This document shows, in pieces, positions 20,660 through 64,000 of a stretch of DNA of 64,000 bases. The translations under genes were made by a program, and so were the position numbers. The stretch lies in the NCBI GenBank assembly GCA_002205965.3, contig NADL03000053.1, forward strand, positions 372,001-436,000. Direction: 5' to 3'. The number at the start of each line of letters is the position of its first letter. Position 1 is the first letter of the stretch. The notes beneath the pieces were generated by a model, which saw nothing but the letters and a program-made list of their open reading frames with translations, was not told the origin of the DNA and searched no databases. Source of the stretch: Kappaphycus alvarezii. Lineage: Eukaryota > Rhodophyta > Florideophyceae > Gigartinales > Solieriaceae.

Positions 20660-21660
20660 CTCTAGAGTAGTTTAATTCTTTACAGAAGGGTCGATCTCAA
20701 TGACACTGCATCGTTCCGAGTTCTTCGTAAAGCCGTAGTAGGTTATAAGGAAATTGTGCAGTTCGTCATGATCCGTGCGCCAAGCAATGACAAGGGTCTG
20801 AAAAGGCCATAGAATTTCGTGATTGGACAGAAGGCTTTCTTTATCAATCGTGAACAAGCTTAGCCGTACCTATGGCCCCAAAAAGATACTGAAGAGGCCG
20901 AACCAGCGTAGGAGAGGGCATGAGCAGTTGAAGAAAAAGTTTGACCAGCTACCTGCACAGTTTTTGGAGCTGTATAAGTTAGAGAAAGGAGGATCTGTGG
21001 CTACAGTTGATAACGACTTTAGTTGAAGTTTCTGTAGGAAAAGGAAGTACCGTGCTACTCAGTGCCTTCAGAACACCAACAGGTACACTGAATGCCCCAT
21101 ATGTGGAAGGGGAGGGGATTTGGAGGCAACGCACTGGTCCAGGGACCAGAGTGGCGGAGATAGATTGGTTAGAATCACTAGGGCAAGCGCTAACTCCGGA
21201 AGGGAACTTCGGCTTGAATAAAATGCATATGAAGAGCCAGTGGCTGTCGTACAGGAGTCCAGGAATGCCCATGTTGTAGCAGCTGCTAAGAGGAATGCAG
21301 AGTGTCAGGCCCTTCCGAAACAGAGGAAGGACAACGTCATAGGTATTGACACATTAATAGAAAATATCAAATATCCCCTCCACCAACAGTTGTACCCGCG
21401 GCCGGAAGGAAAAAGAATAGGAAAAGGAAGATGAGTCTGGGGGCTCCAAGAATACGTCTGAAAATCAAAACGATCGCGGAGCTTGCATTCGCTTCTTCTT
21501 GCATGAAACTTGGGCAGTTGATTCGCGGGGATGCAGAAGCAGCTAGGAAGCAGCTTAGGCAGTTGATTACGAAGAACGTTACTATGACGCAAGCCGCATA
21601 CTCTAGCACGGATCGAGGGCCACGTAGATTGAAGATAGTTGTCATGAAGTTATACGCCAC
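20660..21660 (+). pseudogene. Gypsy-1 gag with degenerate zinc knuckle
   Basis: Open pieces at 20823-21026, 21240-21434 and 21431-21660 are basic and Gln/Lys-rich, as in the gag C terminus. At 21093-21137 the frame reads CPICGRGGDLEATHW. The spacing CX2CX4-X-X4-X matches a CCHC knuckle, but the His is Asp and the final Cys is His. The segment KLGQLIRGDAEAARKQLRQL lies just before the protease. The knuckle would not bind zinc normally. Confidence 0.55.
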
Positions 21661-22160
21661 GGGGATTCATGCGTTATTGGATACTGGAGCCGTTCCTTAC
21701 TTGATATAATGGGTCTTTTTCCAGAAATTGGTGCTTTCGCCAATGGTTACGGATCACCATGTTACAATTGCTGATGGGACAGTTGCCCATGTTGTCGGTT
21801 CTGCAGAGGAAGTTACAGTCTCGTACTGCTCTAGTGACTCCTCTCGACTTCTTAGTGGTACGAAACGTCCCATTCGATTCTATTTCCAGTAGCACCACTT
21901 TAGAGTCTCCACAGGCCAATATCGACTACTATAGGCGCCAAAATGTCACGCTCGACGTCTGGGGAAAAGAAGTGCTTCTGGGGCTCCTTGGATATCTTCC
22001 CGTGGTTGACGGAGGTGGCACTGATAGTGACGATTTCACGTCCCCAGGAGAGACGCAGATCGAGAAACTCGCCGCATCCTTCACCTCTAAGTTCGGTAGC
22101 AGTGGACTTGGGTCCGATACCGGGCAGGAACTGGAATTGAAGATTCTGAACAAGGAACAG
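21640..22160 (+). pseudogene. Gypsy-1 aspartic protease
   Basis: YATGIHALLDTGAVPYLI places the retropepsin active-site Asp-Thr-Gly at 21680-21688, followed by a stop. The next frame continues FFQKLVLSPMVTDHHVTIAD and GSAEEVTV, and another gives VTPLDFLVVRNVPFDSI, the flap and closing strands of a gypsy protease. All expected blocks are present but spread over three frames. Confidence 0.65.
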
Positions 22161-22199
22161 TACGAACCCGATCTGTACCCACTTTAAGTGGAAGAGAGA

Positions 22200-22870
22200 A
22201 ATTCTGGGGAGCGCGAGGGAGCGTATTTTGCCGTGCTTCTCGCTTCTAAGATGAGAGCTCTAGACGAGAAGGGCCAAGAGGCCCTGGTAAAGGCATTTGC
22301 GGACACTGACGTCATCGCGAGGGATATTCACGACTGGAAGCAAGCTGATGTACTTGTTGCACACTCGTTAGAGCTGACTGACTAGACCCTATACAATCGA
22401 GGTCCCGCAGGAGGGCGCCGAGACATAATGCTGTAGTCAGGAAGGAACTCGACGAGATACTTCAAGCGGGGGTTATTACCCCAGCAAATTCACGTTGGTC
22501 CTTCCCTGTGGTCATTGCGACTAAAACGGGTGGAAGGCCTCGCATTTGCGTTGAATATTGTCAGCTCAGCAGTGATACGGAGCCTGATCGATGGGCGTCA
22601 CCAAAAATCGATAAAACCTTTTGTGATATTTCGGGGGCCAAGTTCTTTACGAAGCTTGACCATTATACAGGCTATTAGCAGGTACGAATTTCGAGGAATG
22701 CAAGCAAAAGACGACATTTTTATGCCTTTACGGGACGTACGAGTTTAAAGTGCTGCCCTTTGGACCAATGAACGCTCCTTCGAAGTTCCAGAGGATGATG
22801 GAAGATGTTTTGCAGAAATCACCCTTCGCAATGGTGTACGTGGATGACGTAGTGAAACACAATTGCTGGA
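22200..22870 (+). pseudogene. Gypsy-1 reverse transcriptase
   Basis: In one shifting frame: AFADTDVIARDIHDWKQAD (linker), LDEILQAGVITPANSRW, VVIATKTGGRPRICVEY (fingers), KFFTKLDHYTGY (first catalytic Asp), GTYEFKVLPFG, MNAPSKFQRMMEDVLQK, and YVDD at 22837-22848. These are the ordered RT blocks of Ty3/gypsy. The YVDD box is intact. Stops at several points and a run of nonsense after 22860 show that thumb and RNase H have decayed. Confidence 0.8.
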
Positions 22871-23119
22871 CATGGCTAGTTTGTCGGTGAGCAGTTACAG
22901 TAAACAGGCCCGAGAAAGAAGACCGCGCTTCGGCGCAACGCGTATAAGTTCATGCTGTGGTACGAAACTACTTTCCGCTGTGGGAAGGATTGATCGTCCC
23001 TTGGACAACGTGCTGAAATAATGGTTACTTTTCACGATGACATAGGCCACTAGGACGTTGAATCAACAAGAAATTTTGAAAGAGAGAGGTTTAGGTGGCC
23101 AGAAGTTTATCTTGAGGTG

Positions 23120-23630
23120 ACGGGCTACGTCAAATCGTAGTAAGGGAAAGCGTGCGAAGGTTGCCAGCACGCTCGACGACTATCACCTTATAAGACGAAC
23201 CTCATATACCCTGTCACGAAGTTGCTCGAGACTTTTTCGATCGACTTCGCGGGTCCCTTCAAGATATCAAAGACAGGACAAAGATTCAGTCTAATTGCGG
23301 TGGAACACATGATGGGTGCTAGGTGATTCAAGTAGGCGCCGGACAAGACAGAGAGGTCAAGAGAAGAGAATAATATTACGGGAATATTAGAAACGTTCGC
23401 AGTTGGGCAAGACGTCTTGTTTGTTTACAGCGCAGCGATCAATAAGAGCATGGGTTGGCCGGCTTTTGAGTCGTTCTACTACAGGCCTTGCGAGATCATT
23501 AAGGCCGAGAATCTATGCTAAAATCTTGTTTAGTCCAGCGGCAGGATCCTAGTAAGGCTAATAATGCGAAGAGACTAGCGCGTTATCACGTGCAGGTCAA
23601 CTTCGCTCCACGGGCAGCAGCACTCACCGC
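23120..23630 (+). pseudogene. Gypsy-1 integrase core and C terminus
   Basis: At about 23213-23325 the frame reads PVTKLLETFSIDFAGPFKIS, KTGQRFSLIAVEHMMG: the integrase core segment with the first catalytic Asp (usually W..DF.GP). At about 23403-23515 it reads VGQDVLFVYSAAINKSMGWP, then FESFYYRPCEIIKAE, the C-terminal GPY/F-like domain (YYRPCEI). The region with second Asp and Glu between them is mostly deleted. Confidence 0.65.
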
Positions 23631-46126: not shown

Positions 46127-46157
46127 GGGTCACGGTAATAATGGCGTCAACGGGAAA
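46127..46157 (+). repeat. 30-bp direct repeat flanking MDQ-1, left copy
   Basis: GGGTCACGGTAATAATGGCG and the following ACGGGAAA match 47676-47706 (GGGTCAGGGTAAAATTGGCG, then TCAACGGGAAA) at all but about four positions. The two copies bracket MDQ-1, with the right copy starting exactly at its CA end. Confidence 0.7.
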
Positions 46158-46622
46158 CGTAGTCGTTACAAAAACGGTCCGTTCTGTAGGAGAGGGGTCT
46201 TCTCTACAAATTTCTGTCTTCTTCTTCCCTGTGAGTTTTCAAAAACAACTCTTCCCATCAATTTTTTTTACGAACAAAATTATGAAACGAATTTTTCCCC
46301 ATGACTCCAAACTCACTGTGCAACTCCATTTCCATTTTGTCTTTAAGCATTTCGGTCCTCCTTTTTCAAAAGAGAAATCTTTCGACTCGTGATCCGCTTC
46401 GTCCTCCAAATTCAGTTCCGATATTTTATCAAGCAGATTTTTAGTTATTGTCCTAATCGCCTTGCAAATTCAAAGCTGTGGCATTGCCTCACATTTTTTA
46501 TTTCTTCCAAGGCCGTGAAACTTTTCGAAGACGTCACCCTATTTAAAGTTCGAAATCGACGTCGTTAAGAAAAACCCCTCCATCAGCTACCCCATCGGAT
46601 CACCGTTTTTTTCCTCCTCAAC

Positions 46623-47230
46623 ATGACCAACCTCCGCCCGTCCCTCACCATCGCCGAGTCATCCCAAGGCCGCCGTCCCCTCAGCGCGCTGGCCGTGATG
46701 GCAATGGACCAACCGAGTATGATGATTACTGTAGAAAAATGGACCGGGAACGCGTTCGGGAGTGAGTCTGCCGTAACTGCTTGAGCAGGCAGAAGAGGCA
46801 GAGGAGGAGGAAGAGGAGGTAGAGGAAGAGGAGGAAGAGGAGGAAGAGGAAAATGAAGAGGAGGACTGGGTGGACCGTGGAAGCCACTAGTTTTCAACGG
46901 TGTGGGAGCTGCTGTGGAGAACGAAGGGGAGACTGAAGGCGTAATCGTGATCTCTGACTCCTCATACAAGGATGAAGAGGAGGATGAATAGGAGGAGGAC
47001 GAGAAGGATGAAGCTGAGGAGACATGGGAAGTGTTGGAATGGTGGAGAGGGGGCCGGACAGTATGGACCAGGTGGTCCTGACTCTGGAACCTGGAGGGAG
47101 CTTCTTCAGTGGTCTAGATATTTCCCAGGAAGAAATGGAGAATTATAAGCTGTTCGCGGATATTTGTGGAGACTGCTTGGGTGGAATGGATATTTTGGGA
47201 GAATTTTTCGGCTTTGATCTAGAGGACTGA
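46623..47230 (+). pseudogene. MDQ-1 ORF (acidic protein), frameshifted
   Basis: Begins MTNLRPSLTIAESSQGRRPL. An out-of-frame PTEYDDYCRKMDRERVRE corresponds to PTDADDYLRRQAKKKIIEFV of MDQ-2. Then comes a Glu-rich tract (EEAEEEEEEVEEEEEEE), and from 47024 an intact C-terminal frame containing PDSMDQVVLTLEPGGSFFSG, DISQEEMENYKLFADICGDC and GMDILGEFFGFDLED. The last ~60 residues are best conserved among copies. Acidic/hydrophobic alternation there resembles a transcription activation or protein-docking segment; no known family recognised. Confidence 0.6.
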
Positions 47231-47389
47231 GATATTAAGGAATAAATGTAGATATTTATCCTGATAGTATCTGCTGTTAGTTTTCTCGTTCACACGATTC
47301 CATTTGATGCATTTTATTGTTATATGTATGTTTATTTGAGACTTTAGGGTTAGCCAAAAAGTCTATATAGGCTGAGTAAACTGCTTCCT

Positions 47390-47470
47390 CTTGTAGAGGT
47401 CAAACAAGTTGGCAGACAACTTCAAGCCAAGTCCCGAGTAGTAGGAAGTTGAGAGTCAACTTCAGACTCA
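47390..47470. repeat. MDQ-1 3' inverted-repeat block
   Basis: AAGTTGGCAGACAACTT at 47406-47422 and AAGTTGAGAGTCAACTT at 47446-47462 are each perfect 6- to 7-bp stems around 3-5 bases. The preceding GTCTATATAGGCTGAGTAAA and CCTCTTGTAGAGG (another small stem) are also conserved in MDQ-2 and MDQ-3. Confidence 0.75.
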
Positions 47471-47675
47471 AGAACCATTTTTCTTACGCAGGTCACAGAG
47501 CATCAGTGGTAGACTTTGCCCCTTTATACTTACTTTTAGCCCTCTCAACTGTCGTCCTTAAAAAACCCTTTTCATTCGTTCAACTATACCACGGTAGCAC
47601 TTTTGTCGCTTGCAAAACCTCTTGCTTGGATAATTGGTTCTGAGTATCTCCTCTCCGGACGATTTACCCCTATCA

Positions 47676-48690
47676 GGGTCAGGGTAAAATTGGCGTCAAC
47701 GGGAAAATGAATTGCTATCTATCAGAGATAAGAGTTGGTCAAGCGAATAAAGTGTACAGTAGACGATAACGGACGAGGGCGAGGAGTGGTACTGAAAGAA
47801 AAGTTATTGCTCTAGTAACCGACTCCAAAGTGGCAGACGGTATCACCTCGATTAGGTTTAGACAGCTGGTCGAAGGTTTTTGGTTCAAACCTGACACCCA
47901 ACTTGCCTTCTATCTCCTGACGGAAGCTGTTCATTCAGCTTAAATAGGCTTTTTACAAACTAAATTCTGGATAAAACTACTAAAAGCACCAGAAAAGGCA
48001 GGGAAACACTTTATGTGTACTCGGCTAATTTGACAGAACAATACTTGACAGACAACAAAAAATCTACTCCTCACAACCTCTTCCTCTAGATCAGAACATA
48101 CTACCTCCCTTCAGACATCATAAGTACCCATTAAGTCCCACGCATACCCTTGATTGGGTCAACAAAGCGTACCTCTTTCTGCAACAAATCCGGCTCACCT
48201 AATGGTCCTCCAACCGGATCCATGGCCGGGACAACCTCATTCATCCAATTCAGTCCCTCCTCTCACATGTGACCCAGTTCGACATCCCACTCTTCATCCC
48301 TGGTATCCTCCACCTCCTCTCCTTCATCCTTTCGCTTGTTCTAGCCCAATGTATTTCTATTCAAACCATGTTCCAGGATCCACAAAGCAAACAATAAATG
48401 AGCTATTCTGCCAGCTAAAAAGAAGTCTGTAGCTGAGTACGTTACGGTCTCAGTTACCATTCGTTTCAATGTTATTTCTAGTAGTGGCTTTGGTCGTCTA
48501 TAGCATAGATGATTATTTGCGTCAACGCGAATTTCCCATTCCAAAGAATTTCATTCCTCCCTCCGAGGGTTCATAAACGTTCCTCCCCCATTACTATGTA
48601 GGCACACCCTTTTGAGTCTATTACGATTGTCTGGAAAACGTTAGGATAGATCAAATATATTTTTCAACAGTGAAAACACCTAAAACTCCC
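47676..48690. other. No clear gene after MDQ-1
   Basis: Begins with the right copy of the 30-bp direct repeat (47676-47706). A TGGCAGACGG...GGTTCAAACC pair at 47831 and 47880 looks like pol III A and B boxes 50 bases apart, but no cloverleaf forms. A Pro/Ser-rich plus frame at 48154-48432 (92 codons) has no motif. The LINE tail begins at about 48695. Confidence 0.4.
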
Positions 48691-49460: not shown

Positions 49461-50620
49461 TGGACCGTAGTATTGGAACCAGACGTATTAAACAAATAAG
49501 AGAGCAATGTGTGTCCTAAGGCCCGGGCATAATGCCCAATATACCCATTGTTTAACGCCAAGGAGGCCCATCGACAAGCGAAACGCTTGCCTCCTGCTGT
49601 CGCTAGCTGCTATGCGTTCTTAAGCCGCTTCGTGATTGCATCAGTCAGCTTCTTTTGCGAGGGTGGGATGTTAGAGCGAAAGGCACTGAACGTAACTATC
49701 CTCAACGATGTACAATAGGTAGACCACACCCTCTAGACGTCGACTGTGAAAATTTTAAAAAAAATTTTTTTTACAAGTTTTGGAAAACTGTTTAATTCTT
49801 TGTCCATATCAAATGCAGTGACGAAAAATTGTTGAACAATTTTTTTTCAGAAGCCAACAATTTTTATTTATCGTCTTAAAAAACTCCTGTATAGAGTGTT
49901 TCCTAGAATATCCTAACTGCGAGCGCACGAGAGCTCAAGTCGTTCTTTTTGGGAACACGGATTGACAGAGGACGTTAACTACGATTACTCGCACAGGAGA
50001 ATATCACCAAAGCCGCGAAACTGCGAACTGTGTTTATTGATTTCGTCCTATCAAGAGGGGACGGGCAATAGAACCGGAACGAGGCTGATTATCAACGTAA
50101 CAGCACGCGAACTACCGTTTTTCACTGATAGTGGAGGGCGGGAGCTTGGCGACTGCTCGCATCACTGCACTAAACCAGAACTAAGAGCCACGACCTTTGG
50201 AATCCCTATGTTTCTATAGAAGTTACCCTTCCGCCCTTTTGTCCTTTGATCCATTCTAATTCAGGCAAACGAATAAATTCGTGATAGGGTCTGGAACCTC
50301 AGTAATGTTGAAATACTTTACAGCACACCGCGAGCGTGTTCCTTCTTGACATATTGTGAATCATCGAAAACTAATTTTATCTATTTTCACTAGCCATTCG
50401 TTATAATGTATTATACGTGAAGCAATTTTATGTATTCCAGTTGGTTTCTAAATTCTACAGTTATAATTACAGGAATTATATTACCAGCAAATTATTATTT
50501 GGATTAATAATCCCCTGAAGAATTATTCTTTAGTTGTCACCAAGCATGAATTTGGTTTACAATAATTACTATTTTGCTATTGGAATCATCTTTTTGGCTT
50601 TTCGATTCTGATCCTGGCGC
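49461..50620. other. No assignable gene; AT-rich
   Basis: Holds an A/T run (AATTTTAAAAAAAATTTTTT at about 49750). One plus open frame lies at 49962-50219 (85 codons, MTEDVNYDYSHRRISPK) with four Cys and a Cys-Ser-His-His group but no recognised domain. Confidence 0.4.
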
Positions 50621-50627
50621 TTTACAG

Positions 50628-50913
50628 TGAAAATTTGTTAAAGCTACAAAGAGTGTAACCCACTGTAGTGCCGTCGCACAGTATTAAGAGCACAAGCCAG
50701 CTTGACTATTCTTCCGCCCCCCCGCGACCTATCGACAGAACCCAAGAGAGAATTATTTGCTGCGTAGACTTTTTTGTTCGTAGCTCTTCCATGGTCCTCA
50801 ACCCCGGCCCTTCTCGGGAGTAAACTAGGTTGTTCGCCAACGAAGAGGTTATTGATTCAGTACTTTGATCGCCAAAGTAACAGTAGTCGTGCAGCAAAGC
50901 GGATCCCACGACA
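50628..50913 (+). repeat. Copia-4 5' LTR
   Basis: Matches 57351-57635 over its length. Anchors: TTGTTAAAGCTACAAAGAGT, GTCGCACAGTATTAA, CGACAGAACCCAAGAGAGAA, TTGTTCGTAGCTCT, CAGTACTTTGATCGCCAAAG and AGTCGTGCAGCAAAGCGG. A shared CTTTACAG precedes both copies, so the true start may lie several bases upstream of TG 50628. Confidence 0.85.
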
Positions 50914-57150: not shown

Positions 57151-57350
57151 CTTATATAGAATTTTGGCAACCTCTCACACTCTGTTAGACAGAATTTCGC
57201 GCATTGGCTTGTAATTCTTTTGCGAATTTTGCCTGGAAGGATTCGCAGTGAGTACAATGAGTCTTATTTTATCCATTCATTTTTTTCTTATCAGACACTG
57301 AGGACTGATCGTGCTCCGTCTTTGACAACAGGGGGATTATTTCTTTACAG

Positions 57351-57635
57351 TGTAACTTTGTTAAAGCTACAAAGAGTGGAACCTAATGTAGCGCAGTCGC
57401 ACAGTATTAATAGCACAAGCCAGCCTTACCATTCTGCCACCCCCCCCCCGACCGATCGACAGAACCCAAGAGAGAATTATTTGCTGTATAGACTTATTTG
57501 TTCGTAGCTCTGCCGTGGTCCTCAACCCGGCCCCTCTCGGAGTAAACTGAATTTTCTGCCAACAAAGAGGCTACTGATTCAGTACTTTGATCGCCAAAGT
57601 AACAGTAGTCGTGCAGCAAAGCGGGTCCCACCACA
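57351..57635 (+). repeat. Copia-4 3' LTR
   Basis: Counterpart of 50628-50913, ending CCCACCACA. A purine run ACAGGGGGA at 57328-57336 lies ~15 bases upstream and could be the polypurine tract, which would place the LTR start slightly left of TG 57351. Confidence 0.85.
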
Positions 57636-58390: not shown

Positions 58391-58480
58391 GTATTACAAT
58401 TTGTATTGGAGATCCTCTATGTATTGCAATACGTATTGGAAACCCTCCACGTATTGCAATACGTATTGCAAGCTTGCCTG
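58391..58480. repeat. hAT-1 left subterminal array, 30-bp period
   Basis: The perfect palindrome GTATTGCAATAC occurs at 58421-58432 and 58451-58462, preceded by a degenerate unit at 58391. Each is followed by a (T/G)TATTGGA(A/G)A/ATCCTC-like half. Period is exactly 30 bp. Such arrays are the usual transposase-binding sites of hAT elements. Confidence 0.85.
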
Positions 58481-58899: not shown

Positions 58900-60093
58900 T
58901 TGAAGATGATAACTGTTTTTCGTATAATTTTCGTATATGAGTCACTGCGTACAAAAGGAGTGTTTTGTACAGCTCTTGACTTTAACCACCTCATAATTAA
59001 GCCCTTGTTCTCTCTGCCATCGTTTCTCAGTCGCGTAGCCCAGTATGACTTCCAGCAATATCTCCCTTCCGACCGCAAGGATATTGTAGTGTCGCTTATG
59101 CGTTCGTTGGGAAAGAGAAAAAACAACTTTCAACCGGACACCGCTAAAGAAGTCCCAAAAGAATATCTCATGTACCAGTGTCCGAAACCGGAATGCACCT
59201 CTCCAACCGTGTCATTCTTGGACAAAACAGGATTCAATAACCCGTATAAACACCTGCGAAGTTTCTATAGCAAGGGAAAGACATCAAAACGCAAGATGGA
59301 TACTGGTCCATCTCTATGAGGAACAAACAACCATAGAGACTTGGGACCATCCACTCTCACTTTGAGATCAAAACTCTGTTAGAGTATGAAAGGCAATGTA
59401 TGGTTATATTCAGCTTATTGTGGCGAAAAACCTTCCCTTTTACTATGTTGCTGATCCAGATCTGAGCAAATTCTCGCGATATGATGTCAAGATTGGGAAG
59501 AAGAAACTGGTCGAGGTTCTGTTTAAGCTTGTGGAGATGGTGGAGCAGCGTATTGCAGTAGAAATGAAGGGAACAAAAGAGCACTGCTTCGATGGATGGT
59601 CGTGCAACAATATGCATTACGTAGCAGCGATTGCTTTGTACTGCAACTCTATGCAGACAACAGAAAATATTGCATCTGCAAGAGATATTGTTCCTAGGCT
59701 AACACTTCTTGCTCTGTCCCAGATGGGACATGTTGCGGGAGAGTGTGATGAGAATAACTCTTGCAGATGAAACAGCAAATTTCAATGCCGAAGCTTACGT
59801 TCAGTTCTTTAATGAAATCTTTCCATTTTTCGGTCAGCGGTTCTCTAATTGGTGTTTTTGTATTATTGGAGATAATTCCAGTACAAATATGAAGATAGCA
59901 TCGTTGACGAATAAGCAATATGTCGGATTTAACAGCCACAAGCTAAATCTGGAAGTGAACAACATGATTAACATGCACCTACACCTCAAGAAAACAATTG
60001 AAAGTGTGCACTAAACGATGAAAAAGGCGCGAAAACTGAAAAATGCCGCTTTTCTCCGGAATCTTACAGACCTTAAGCCTATCATACACAATC
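58900..60093 (+). pseudogene. hAT-1 transposase, N-terminal part
   Basis: The frame 58900-59319 holds a BED-like finger from Cys 59179 (MYQCPKPECTSPTVSF ... NPYKHLRSFYSKGK). The true start is probably nearer to the finger than Met 58900. The next frame, 59396-59770, reads MYGYIQLIVAKNLPFYYVAD, FSRYDVKIGKKKLVEVLFKL and FDGWSCNNMHYVAAIALYC; the Asp at 59591-59593 is the expected first catalytic residue. The frame 59709-60093 gives FCIIGDNSSTNMKIASL (second Asp at 59871-59873), SHKLNLEVNNMI and KKARKLKNAAFLRNLTDLKP. A TAA at 60012 is the only stop in this last frame. MDQ-2 interrupts it after the HN codons. Confidence 0.8.
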
Positions 60094-60399
60094 TGTTAGC
60101 AGAAAGTCGGCGTAAGAGAGATATCCAACGCCCACTATCCAAAACGGAAGTGTTGCGAGCGACAAGATGCTGTGCTAAGGTATTTGTGGGAACAAAAAGT
60201 GCTGTATACGAACGAGAAATCTGTGGCAACCGACTATGTCCGAAAGGGGCAGGCTGCACCTTCGCCTTGCGAATGACAGATCTGCTTTCGGGTACGTCGC
60301 AAGGCAAATGCAATGGGCTGAAATGGAAGAGGGCTCAGTGGATCATCCAACAATACTAAGGGGCAGGCCCTTCCACCTGGCTTCGAGGCTTGAGAGCCG

Positions 60400-60520
60400 T
60401 TTATAAATTTTGGGCCTGAAGATGACTACCAACTTCGTTACTACTGGAGAATCTCTTTCGAAGTTGTCTGCCAACTTGCTTTCCCTCTACAAGAGGAAGC
60501 ATTTACTCAGCTTATATAGA
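60400..60520. repeat. MDQ-2 inverted-repeat block and TATA-like word
   Basis: AAGTTGTCTGCCAACTT at 60461-60477 and CCTCTACAAGAGG at about 60484 are stems conserved in MDQ-1 and MDQ-3. CAGCTTATATAGACTTTTT follows at about 60508. On the other strand the same TATATAAG could serve as a TATA box. Confidence 0.7.
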
Positions 60521-60663
60521 CTTTTTGACTTTTTGGCTAACCGTAGTCTCAAAGGAACATACTAAGACCATAAAATGTATCAAATGGAATCGTTGAACGA
60601 GAAAGACTAACAGCAGATACTATTAGGATAATTTCTAGATTCCTTCCTTAATATCTTAGTCCT

Positions 60664-61180
60664 TTAGATCAGAGCCAAACAGTTCCCCAAAATATCCATT
60701 CCACCCAAGCAGCCACAAATATCCGCGAACGGCTTAGAATTCTCCATTGCCTCCGCGAAATATCTAGACACTGAAGATGCCCCCATCCGGTTCCAGAGTC
60801 GGGACCACCTGGTCCATATTATTCAGCCCGAGCCCCACCTCACTGACTTCTTCTGCCTCATCTTCTTCACTCTCCTCCCCATCCTCCTCATCATCCTCGT
60901 TTCGTCCATGTCATCGTCCTCGCCACACTCGTAAACTAAATCCGGGGCCACCCACGCCTCAAACGACTTGCCGAGCTCATCCTCTTCCTTCTCCGCCTCA
61001 CCCTCACTGACTTCTTGCATCACCTTCGACGAAGAGTTCGCGGACGAACTCTATGATCTTCTTCTTCGCCTGGCGTCGCAGGTAGTCGTCTGCGTCCGTC
61101 GGGATACGCAGCGTGCAAGGCTGTTCAAGGGCGAGAGGGGCGATTTTTGTGATGTAAGCGGAGCGGCGAAGGTTGTTCAT
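60664..61180 (-). pseudogene. MDQ-2 ORF (acidic protein), frameshifted
   Basis: Starts at 61180 on the minus strand: MNNLRRSAYITKIAPLALEQ, then PTDADDYLRRQAKKKIIEFV and RELFVEGDARSQ before a stop. Alignment to MDQ-3 indicates a one-base loss just there. The correct sequence resumes in the next frame (61023-60823) with MQEVSEGEAEKEEDELGKSF, EAWVAPDLVYECGEDDDMDE. A third frame supplies ENSKPFADICG and GMDILGN near 60740-60680. Basic helix, acidic middle and conserved C-terminal motif are in the same order as in the other copies. Confidence 0.65.
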
Positions 61181-61584
61181 TTTGGTTGTAAATGGAGTGG
61201 GGCGATTGTGGATGGAGGATAGGGGTGTGAGAGGGAGGTTAGTGTGTGTAGAGGTTGGTGGATCTCAAAAAAGCTGGGTAAAATGGGTAAGGTAACCTTA
61301 GAGACGGATTGGAGTCGGTACTAAAAAGGTAAAATCGAAATTGCAGTAGCGTATTTGCTGAAATTTCTACATTAGGAGTGAATTTGATGAAAGGTAGATA
61401 TAAAAAGACGTAAACGTTGATTTGGAGTAGATTTGGAGGAGAGGATACAGTATTAAAATATCTAGGGGGGATGGTAGACAAATTTGGAAAGGACGGTAAG
61501 CGGATTCAGAAGCGGAATCGTTAAATTTTTTTTGTAAGTTGCAGATCCCTTTGAGAGGACCATTTCCTGTATTACAACAATCCT

Positions 61585-62340
61585 ACACGTTGGTCTGGCA
61601 AATTAAATATGCTTAAAAGGTTTGTTCAGATACGAGATGAGTTGATCAAAGTCCGAAACGCACCAGAGGGAGACCTTATAGTTGAGACAAGTGCAAAATT
61701 GGCTTCCAGGGTACAAAAATTTGAGAAGATGTTGGCCGAAAGTGATGTAGTAACAAAGTCACTGCAAATTTGTGGTCGTACGTTAGCTGAATGCCGAGAA
61801 GATCTCGACGTTTTGGTGGAGACTGTTATTGAGGAAAAGGATCTTCCTGGTTCCTCACTTTATCAATGCAAGCTTGATATGAAATATATTTCTCCGGACG
61901 CAAATATAGTTCTACACCTTGCATTTGAAACTGGGGTCGTGAAAATACAGAGAGGTTTGCACTTGGATCTATCTGAAGACGAGAAAAAGGCAGTTATGTG
62001 CTTAAAGAAGGACACAAATGGTGCAGTTGAAAATGAACCTTTCGAAAGTACTATCTCAAGCGCCCTAATTATGGCACAGCGATTATCAAGCGAAGGAAGA
62101 AGGATGAGACGGAGAGCGCATATATTAATTGTGACTTTATTTTGGGTCAGTTGCAGAGTTTGAACGTTTATGGAGCATTTCTAAGTACGTGCTAACTGCA
62201 ATCGACGGTCTATGACCCCCCAGCAATTGTATTCCTGAAGGTGAATGAAAGATTCTGGGACGCGCAACTTTTAAGCCAAGCCACTAATGGAACGCGTTGT
62301 GATAGGGCCGGAGCCAGTATGGAAACTCACGAGGCTCATC
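61585..62340 (+). pseudogene. hAT-1 transposase, C-terminal part with dimerisation region
   Basis: Resumes at 61582 with PTRWSGKLNMLKRFVQIRD (hAT proteins have a T.TRW.S...M..R). It runs open to 62163 through FEKMLAESDVVTKSLQICGR and DANIVLHLAFETGVVKIQRG. After a frame change come AEFERLWSISKYVL near 62153-62194, RRSMTPQ, and VFLKVNERFWDAQLLSQA at about 62230-62283. These last blocks match the C-terminal hAT dimerisation domain (E..FS....I...R..L......FLK.N..FW). Two frame changes inactivate it. Confidence 0.8.
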
Positions 62341-62440
62341 AAGAGCTCGACAGCAACGCTAGTGCTTAAGATTTATCGCAGCTCTTATACTTGTTTGGAT
62401 TGTAGTAAATATATTACCAGTAGTATTTCAATCTAAACGA

Positions 62441-62560
62441 GCATTGCAACAAGTATTGATACCCTGTGGCGTATTGCAATACTTATTACTGGCTTGAGGC
62501 GTATTGCAATACATATTGAATCCGTTATTTGTATTGCAATACCTATTGCTATTGTTCTGG
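62441..62560. repeat. hAT-1 right subterminal array, 30-bp period
   Basis: GTATTGCAATAC at 62471-62482, 62501-62512 and 62531-62542, each 30 bp apart, with a degenerate unit at 62441 (GCATTGCAACAAGTATTGAT). Mirrors the array at the left end. Confidence 0.85.
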
Positions 62561-62849
62561 AACGGAAATACGTATTGCATATTGCATATTTGGAAGCAAT
62601 ATATTGCAATAATATTGGACACAGCCCTGGTCGAGGGGTCTGATAGGGGTAAATCGTCGGGAGAAGAGATATTAGAACCAACTACCCCAAGACGGAGGTG
62701 TTGCGAGCGACAAAAGTGCTACCGTGGTATAGTTGAACAAATAAAAAGGAGTGTATATGGGAGAGTTGAAGGGCTACAAGCAAGTATAAAAGGGGCAGGG
62801 TCTACCACTGATGCTCTGCGACCAGCTTAGGAAAAAGTTTTCTAGGGTC

Positions 62850-62940
62850 TGAAGTTGACTCTCAACTTCCTACTACTCGGACTTGACTGAAGTTGTCTGC
62901 CAACTTGCTTGACCTCTCCATGAGGAAGCGGTTTACTCAG
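62850..62940. repeat. MDQ-3 inverted-repeat block
   Basis: AAGTTGACTCTCAACTT at 62852-62868 and AAGTTGTCTGCCAACTT at 62890-62906, then CCTCTCCATGAGG, GGTTTACTCAGC and TTATATAGAC. Same order and spacing as in MDQ-1 (read on the other strand). Confidence 0.75.
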
Positions 62941-63076
62941 CTTATATAGACTTTTGGCTACCCCTAAAGTCCGAACAAAACTACAGAAGGTACCAGGAAA
63001 TGCATACAAACAATTTGTGTGGATGATATACTCTAAACAAAAGATACTTAAGAAACTAACAATCAATGAGGTCCTC

Positions 63077-63685
63077 TTATTTCCCATTCTCTAAATCAGA
63101 TCCAAACAACTCCTCTAAAATATCCATGCTGTCCAAGCAGTCCCCACAAATATCTGCGAATGGCTCACAGCTCTCTATTCCCTCCTGGGAGATATCTAAA
63201 CTACTAAAGATATCTCCATCCGGTTCCAGCGTCGGCACCACTTGATCCATACTCTCCAGTCCAGGCCCCACCAGTAAAACACTTTCCATGCCCCCATTTC
63301 CCTCCTCCAACTCGTCCTCCTCTCCTCCTCTTCCCCTCTTCCTCCTCATTCCCCCTCATCCTCCTCTTCCTCTCTTCCTCCCTCATCCTCCTCTTCCTCA
63401 TTCCTCTTCCTCCTTCCCCTGAGTCTCGTACACTAGCTCAGGGGCTAACCATTCCTCGAAGGACTCCCCGCTCTCCTCCTCGACTTTCTCAGTCTCATCC
63501 TCACTTACCTCCCTCGCCTCTTCTTCTATGAAGAGGCGGCGAACGAACTCGATGATTTTCTTCTTTGTTTGACGCCGGATGTAGTCGTCGGCATCGGTTG
63601 GCCCGTAGGCGGCGAGACGAAGGCCATTGATGGGACGGGAAGGGCGGTTTTTGGAGATAGGGACAGAGGGGCGATTTGACGTCAT
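63077..63685 (-). pseudogene. MDQ-3 ORF (acidic protein), three in-frame stops in GA-rich tract
   Basis: The protein begins MTSNRPSVPISKNRPSRPIN, continues YGPTDADDYIRRQTKKKIIE and FVRRLFIEEEAREVSEDETE, then KVEEESGESFEEWLAPELVY. In the following GA-rich stretch (63400-63350) the same frame has three TGA codons. It reopens to SMDQVVPTLEPDGDIFSSLD, ISQEGIESCEPFADICGDCL and DSMDILEELFGSDLENGK. Total would be about 203 residues. The stops may come from slippage in the GA tract. GAGGTAAGTGAG at about 63512 resembles a 5' splice site, so splicing is another possibility. Unknown family; likely nuclear or regulatory by composition only. Confidence 0.65.
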
Positions 63686-64000
63686 GTTTCTGTAAAAGGG
63701 GTGAGCGGGGTGTGTAGGGGGACAGGAGTGCTGAGCAAAATGATCGGGAGCGTTTAAGACTTGGAATAAAGGTGTTTAAATAGGCTCCCGGGGCAGGTTC
63801 TATAGATTAGAAATAGGTAAAATAAATCTGCAAGGGATTTTTGTAGTAGTGCATTTGCGCCCTTTGTCTCAAAAAAAAGATTTTGGAGGAGGAGGTAAGC
63901 AAAAAGGGAAAAAGAACTTAATTCGGGATCGATTCAGAGGGGTGGATACAGTGTAAAAATATCTAGATAAAATGGAAGTAAATTTGGAGAGGACCGCGGT

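Follow-up and report, generated by a model that had tools for sequence, protein, structure and literature searches.

Background

Spumaviruses carry in tas/bel a small transcription regulator that is located near the 3' LTR and has an internal promoter. To our knowledge, the LTRs of Ty3/gypsy elements are taken as non-coding. Retroviral LTRs are called ordinarily non-coding in the available sections of PMC4667437, where the sag gene of MMTV is placed mostly in U3, most sag-containing contigs are solo LTRs and purifying selection is reported. Other open reading frames (ORFs) of orthoretroviral LTRs are the primate lentiviral nef and the LTR ORFs of HML2, HML3, HML4 and HML8, as covered in the accessible part of PMC2664473.

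We analysed a stretch of 64,000 nucleotides of the Kappaphycus alvarezii genome (the window), which holds several copies of a repeat called MDQ. The repeat serves as the LTR in a family of Ty3/gypsy retrotransposons, and it carries a conserved protein gene.

MDQ copies in the window

Three copies, MDQ-1, MDQ-2 and MDQ-3, showed the following parts.

60094..61576, minus strand: MDQ-2, solo LTR of subfamily B with TG...CA ends, 1,483 bp, ORF broken (from its ends, genome copies and duplication)
60088..60093, no strand: left copy (ACAATC) of the MDQ-2 target site duplication (the frame continues without the LTR and one copy)
61577..61582, no strand: right copy (ACAATC) of the MDQ-2 target site duplication
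60667..61180, minus strand: remnant of the MDQ-2 ORF, spread over several frames (tblastn pieces; ATG position)
60512..60518, minus strand: TATATAA box of MDQ-2, 3' of the ORF, putative genomic-RNA promoter (motif)
60461..60477, minus strand: inverted repeat AAGTTG-N5-CAACTT of MDQ-2, past the TATATAA box
46158..47675, plus strand: MDQ-1, decayed LTR copy with the A-type 3' end CCCCTATCA (start arbitrary, 5' end approximate)
46540..46546, plus strand: TATTTAA box of MDQ-1, 5' of the MDQ ATG at 46623 (motif)
47364..47370, plus strand: TATATAG box of MDQ-1, 3' of the ORF (motif)
62641..64000, minus strand: MDQ-3, 3' LTR of a long Ty3/gypsy element, the LTR continuing past the window edge
about C53:443573, beyond the window: far end of the MDQ-3 element
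63398..63685, minus strand: N-terminal part of the MDQ-3 ORF, frame broken in the acidic run
63077..63349, minus strand: C-terminal part of the MDQ-3 ORF

An earlier sequence-only reading had described MDQ-2 as a unit with TG...CA ends and a flanking duplication, containing no gag or pol. This description held: the ends read TG...CA on either strand, ACAATC stands at both flanks, and the unit is a single LTR with no internal region. The same reading had stated that the three copies share their ends, an ORF and a 3' block. What MDQ-2 does share with MDQ-1 and MDQ-3 is the ORF, together with the TATATAA block and some of the remaining sequence, but its 3' end (CTGCTAACA) differs from that of the other two (CCCCTATCA). 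The 5' end of MDQ-3 falls beyond the window.

A fourth, strongly decayed copy adjoins MDQ-1 on the minus strand (window about 47887-48270), with an LTR match of 73% over 123 bases and what is left of an MDQVVP motif. MDQ-1 itself was bracketed by a 31-bp direct repeat (90%; 46127-46157 and 47676-47706), which well exceeds the length of a 5-bp target duplication. Two other kinds of repeat were observed in the window. A direct repeat of about 300 bp, unrelated to MDQ, was found at 50620-50913 and 57343-57635 (88-91% identical, 6.7 kb apart), and arrays with a 30-bp period and GTATTGCAATAC palindromes were present in two places (58391-58476 and 62413-62556). Scanning the window for Rfam families and for tRNAs gave no match.

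Paired copies and the Ty3/gypsy element

The C-terminal piece of MDQ-3 was used as the query in a genome search (336 Mb, 884 contigs), where 150 of 6,692 candidates were scored, all with E ≤7.3e-42. Among the 150 matches listed, 55 places formed 29 same-strand pairs, 7,498-7,674 bp apart, on 26 contigs, and there was one opposite-strand pair within 20 kb. The first option of the sequence-only reading was that MDQ-2 is a solo copy of an ORF-bearing LTR from an unseen retrotransposon, and it had proposed a look for direct-orientation MDQ pairs bracketing pol. Such pairs around gag-pol were found in the genome and, together with the target duplication of MDQ-2, they bear this option out.

We examined six 10-kb stretches around such LTR pairs, four of which start inside the first repeat. 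In all six, the direct repeats were 97.3-99.9% identical and the MDQ ORF was in sense relative to the pol ORFs. Each also showed a PBS-like sequence (TTTGGTAC or TTTGGTACTCTTGTGGAGGG) directly 3' of a 5' LTR, and a G-run (PPT) just 5' of the next LTR. Type-A repeats start with TGTTAGG(C/T)GCAG and end with CCCCTATCA or nearly so. Pfam matches of the one stretch scanned (L041) were an aspartyl protease, RVT_1, RNase H, Integrase_H2C2 and rve, in Ty3/gypsy order; domain order and Pfam matches together point to the Ty3/gypsy assignment. Gag families were absent from the Pfam matches of L041, and the label "gag-like" reflects the place and a CCHC-type motif. An ORF precedes the protease, and L042, which is a tandem array, contains CSYCHKPGHFANRC, which we take to be a CCHC zinc-knuckle-like motif. 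Gag-like or pol sequence adjoined 23 of the 30 loci from the C-block search.

The element to which MDQ-3 belongs was followed for 10 kb past the window on the minus strand. By likeness to L041 it showed sequences for integrase, RNase H, RT and protease, a gag-like part and, beyond these, a 5' LTR. Its two LTRs were 94.4% identical; the flanks examined did not match, and no target duplication was seen there. An exact 5-bp duplication was observed in one of the two full-length elements with both outer ends covered. Another gypsy gag-pol remnant lies in the window on the plus strand (21027-23572), and its pieces were 21-61% identical to the MDQ element proteins.

MDQ might still be thought a normal multi-copy host gene with accidentally shared ends, and a host homolog is possible in that 150 of 6,692 candidates were scored in this search and 150 of 9,315 in the search with the L002 protein given below. 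The ends of the copies, however, are LTR termini accompanied by a PBS, a PPT or target duplications, and MDQ-2 precisely interrupts another reading frame. An ordinary host gene without conserved ends, which the sequence-only reading had named as its own refuter, is thus close to refuted for the copies seen, and we find it scarcely credible.

Solo LTRs and subfamily B

MDQ-2 was compared with seven other genome copies. At one end, six of the seven matches ended at most 3 bases apart; at the other end, five of seven stopped at the identical base, L003 being 7 bases longer and L004 44 short. For most matches, the ends of MDQ-2 recur elsewhere in the genome at near-identical bases. From the 40 best B/C places, 18 copies (MDQ-2 included) were examined. 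Both ends were recognised in 17 of them, with an exact 5-bp duplication in 11, a 6-bp one in MDQ-2 and none in five, where L007 and L008 represent one duplicated site within an inverted duplication. Gag-like or pol sequence was seen at the LTR end in none of the 18 B/C copies (A-type proteins as queries, flanks of about 0.6-1.5 kb). The single such match among the B/C flanks, in L003, follows an adjacent A-type LTR piece. Same-strand pairs less than 20 kb apart were absent among the 40 best B/C places.

The four type-A solo LTRs (both ends found, no adjoining PBS or PPT) all had exact 5-bp duplications. Three of these (L030, L036 and L038) retained an intact 215-residue ORF, so the intact copies that the sequence-only reading had suggested looking for do exist. 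MDQ-2 lacks an internal region and is flanked by a target duplication; we read it as a solo LTR, and it is a dead one. The ends of subfamily B are unlike those of type A, and the subfamily as a whole looks like an extinct family that survives as solo LTRs. On contig C75 (119.5-131.3 kb; L007, L008 and L046), two inverted B LTRs with their flanks were observed about 8 kb apart; they were 99% identical over 3.5 kb, which marks a young inverted duplication.

A different account would make subfamily B a pol-free unit that relied on the integrase of related elements for movement in trans and kept its gene. It would agree with the lack of gag-like or pol sequence and of close same-strand pairs just described, and with the 5- or 6-bp duplication directly at a single LTR in 12 of the 17 two-ended B/C copies. 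However, identical duplications persist in solo LTRs that arise from LTR–LTR recombination, and the young type-A solo LTRs look alike. Stops in 22 of the 25 listed B/C ORFs are also what is expected for an old extinct family. We know of no route by which a unit without PBS and PPT would reach reverse transcription, and we regard this account as improbable. The second option of the sequence-only reading, a pol-free self-mobile element, is needless given the LTR pairs and stays weakly open for the MDQ-2 subfamily alone.

The solo LTR MDQ-2 lies inside a reading frame: once it is removed along with one duplication copy, an open frame spans the junction (LTDLKPIIHNPTRWSGKLNMLKRFVQIRDEL). This frame presumably resembles hAT transposases, among them hAT proteins of oomycetes; a Pfam scan of its pieces gave no match. 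Its halves are located at 59709-60093 and 61583-62163 of the window, and the upstream frame itself also contains one or more stops.

The MDQ protein and selection on it

Intact type 1 and type 2 copies encode MDQ proteins of 205 to 227 residues, and the L002 protein has 176 residues with an altered end. The protein consists of a basic N-terminal helix, an acidic run of variable length and a conserved acidic-hydrophobic C-terminus. In the L030 protein, these parts gave pI values of 11.3 (residues 1-52), 4.05 (53-146) and 4.05 (147-215), respectively. For the 95 N-terminal residues of MDQ-3, a structure model made from the single sequence predicted a helix at residues 29-57, with confidence limited to about 31-50, and the structure model of the MDQ-3 C-terminal piece had low confidence. 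The helix and the C-terminal motifs that the sequence-only reading had assigned to MDQ-2 were found, but the ORF of MDQ-2 itself is broken. In the L010 ORF, the acidic run is translated in another frame (RMRM repeats), and both ends are normal.

In the 87-codon N region, type 1 (L030) and L002 showed a pS of 0.70 and a pN of 0.17, with 13/14/49 differences at the three codon positions (p = 6e-8). The corresponding values were 20/15/43 (p = 2e-4) for type 1 against type 2 and 25/18/44 (p = 2e-3) for type 1 against type 3. Between L002 and L008, both from the B/C group, the codon-position bias was absent (6/8/10, p = 0.61), as for dead copies. In the C block, dN/dS was 0.07 between A and MDQ-1 and 0.16-0.19 between A and each of three B/C copies. 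These were chosen representatives with blocks picked up through protein similarity, a procedure that favours conserved blocks. Comparisons within the decayed set of B/C copies and MDQ-1 gave values of 0.28-1.10, as expected for dead copies.

Identity along the LTR was also uneven. Between A and L002 or the B copy L057, the noncoding LTR before TATATAA was 47-58% identical, the ORF halves 69-77%, and the block from TATATAA to the inverted repeat 75-90%. For MDQ-1 the ORF halves gave 51% (N) and 74% (C). The genome search with the L002 protein gave 150 listed matches of 168, from 9,315 candidates. Among the matches listed, 100 of 125 outside the B/C places were stop-free, compared with 3 of 25 at the B/C places. 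Almost all of those outside were 58-71% identical to L002, which means that many diverged copies retain an open ORF.

An ORF without protein function could in principle stay open through copy recency and biased composition, as GAGGAT-type runs are open in more than one frame and L010 uses another frame there. Outside the run, however, third codon positions differ about 2-6 times as often as first or second positions in the old lineages, and the ORF aligns better than the surrounding noncoding LTR. We hold such a functionless ORF to be very improbable. Judged from the codon-level comparisons, which include the dN/dS check proposed by the sequence-only reading, the MDQ protein is under purifying selection between subfamilies. 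It is highly probable that this Ty3/gypsy family keeps its LTR-encoded protein under selection, a grade that leaves aside the guess on an activator role discussed below.

Homology searches gave little. Two MDQ proteins matched no Pfam family at E 0.01; DUF1360 reached E 0.068 against the MDQ-3 N piece, below its cut-off. A PDB search gave five weak matches (E 0.008-0.056) over residues 81-145, i.e., the acidic run, and a PHROGs search gave one weak match (E 0.0077) over residues 32-138, across the same run. No relative was found in the viral contigs scanned.

Promoter motifs and N-terminal modules

TATTTAA was observed 83-117 nt 5' of the ATG in A, A2, MDQ-1, L002, L022 and L024. The exact motif was missing from all five B copies tested, and the aligned B copy L057 has TACTTAA. 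TATATAA or TATATAG was present 3' of the ORF in all 11 sequences tested, and L057, from a separate alignment, has TATATGA. If the TATATAA motif marks the start of the genomic RNA, the ORF sits upstream of it and is probably located in U3. Past this motif, nine of the 11 sequences showed one or two inverted repeats AAGTTG-N5-CAACTT. RNA hairpins at these repeats were considered and set aside, with no clear excess in L039 (z −1.24), MDQ-1 (z −1.60) or MDQ-2 (z −1.47).

We aligned 33 LTRs with both type-A ends to one of them; 31 are distinct, L015 and L033 being the LTRs of L041. In 60-base bins, the first 300 bases were 86-100% identical, as were bases 841 to 1260; the loci were mostly chosen by C-block likeness, so that the C-block sameness is partly sampling, but this does not affect how the N half contrasts with the U3 preceding it. 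The bins from 421 to 720 (N half) split into types, with 24 rows of type 1 and the other nine at 41-78%. By protein motif, eight of these nine belong to type 2 (L014 among them with the type 3 bin pattern) and L024 to type 3. The LTR part past the inverted repeats also has at least two types. Recombination would be the natural reading of different N-terminal halves on LTRs that are otherwise much alike, and it has also been proposed for crapaud (PMC10787394).

Proposed mechanism

Each LTR of about 1.5 kb holds a sense MDQ gene upstream of a putative genomic-RNA promoter. Going by the motifs, TATTTAA may serve every LTR, whether paired or solo, as promoter of an MDQ mRNA, and TATATAA may drive the genomic RNA. 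N-terminal modules would be swapped by recombination, and LTR–LTR recombination would leave solo LTRs such as MDQ-2. The basic part might hold DNA or RNA and the acidic tail might recruit machinery, so that the element's own LTRs are switched on.

This guess comes from the basic helix and the acidic-hydrophobic tail beside the putative promoter of the element. Composition and helix suggest that MDQ may be a small transcription activator of its own LTRs, a role that we offer tentatively and give less than an even chance. Carried further, the LTR would be a self-contained regulatory gene with promoter, activator gene and target sites; solo LTRs would stay trans-acting, and interchangeable N modules would set the LTR that is recognised. 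We consider this extended scheme unlikely as a whole.

MDQ may instead be an accessory protein that acts after transcription or on the host, for example in copy-number control, RNA export or packaging, or anti-silencing. The protein is acidic, and its models have low confidence outside one helix; the variation of N-terminal modules on a much alike backbone could reflect self-recognition or evasion. No specific evidence runs counter to an accessory role and no domain was matched, and we give it close to an even chance. The reading with most support is a protein gene inside the LTR that the lineage of elements has retained and that is presumably expressed from that LTR.

Comparison with known systems

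MDQ elements have in common with Ty3/gypsy elements in general the PR-RT-RH-IN order, the PBS, the PPT and the 5-bp target duplications. Spumavirus tas/bel differs from MDQ in that it belongs to a retrovirus and its ORF lies between env and the LTR. Pfam presumably includes a Sag model, and the search of two MDQ proteins at E 0.01, which matched no family, thus gave no sign of Sag homology.

Long ORFs within LTRs or reaching into them are shared by MDQ, nef and the HML ORFs. As described in the available part of PMC2664473, nef merely reaches into U3, the HML ORFs are mostly antisense, without a start methionine and with no known protein, and all of them are retroviral. The crapaud element of Podospora, a chromodomain LTR retrotransposon, has a common backbone on which its subfamilies vary mainly in U3, with recombinants; unlike MDQ, its LTRs measure 339-443 bp and only GAG and POL ORFs are described in the accessible sections (PMC10787394). 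Retrosat2, RIRE3 and RIRE8 resemble MDQ in that their LTRs are long and that they carry an additional ORF, ORF0, whose function is unproven. In the part of PMC3485330 at hand, ORF0 is placed upstream of the gag-pol ORF and not in the LTR, a description that sets it apart from MDQ.

A protein-coding LTR outside retroviruses was not recognised in the open-access literature, as far as its available parts go, which is weak evidence of absence. A protein-coding retrotransposon LTR is not described in the available sections of PMC1560396, PMC13195028, PMC5348765, PMC12037069, PMC4016481, PMC5408686, PMC11117352 and PMC7472051. Since LTRs are normally treated as non-coding, a gene inside an LTR is easily masked as repeat and missed.

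In layout, MDQ resembles MMTV sag and related betaretroviral sags, the best-known case of an LTR-borne ORF; in MDQ this ORF is in sense in all six stretches. MMTV sag belongs to a vertebrate retrovirus, whereas MDQ sits in a Ty3/gypsy element. A conserved gene in the LTR makes each solo LTR a potential standing copy of that gene, which alters how the element may be regulated and how host genes may be seeded. MDQ would be a counterpart of MMTV sag outside retroviruses, and it offers a concrete protein to test.
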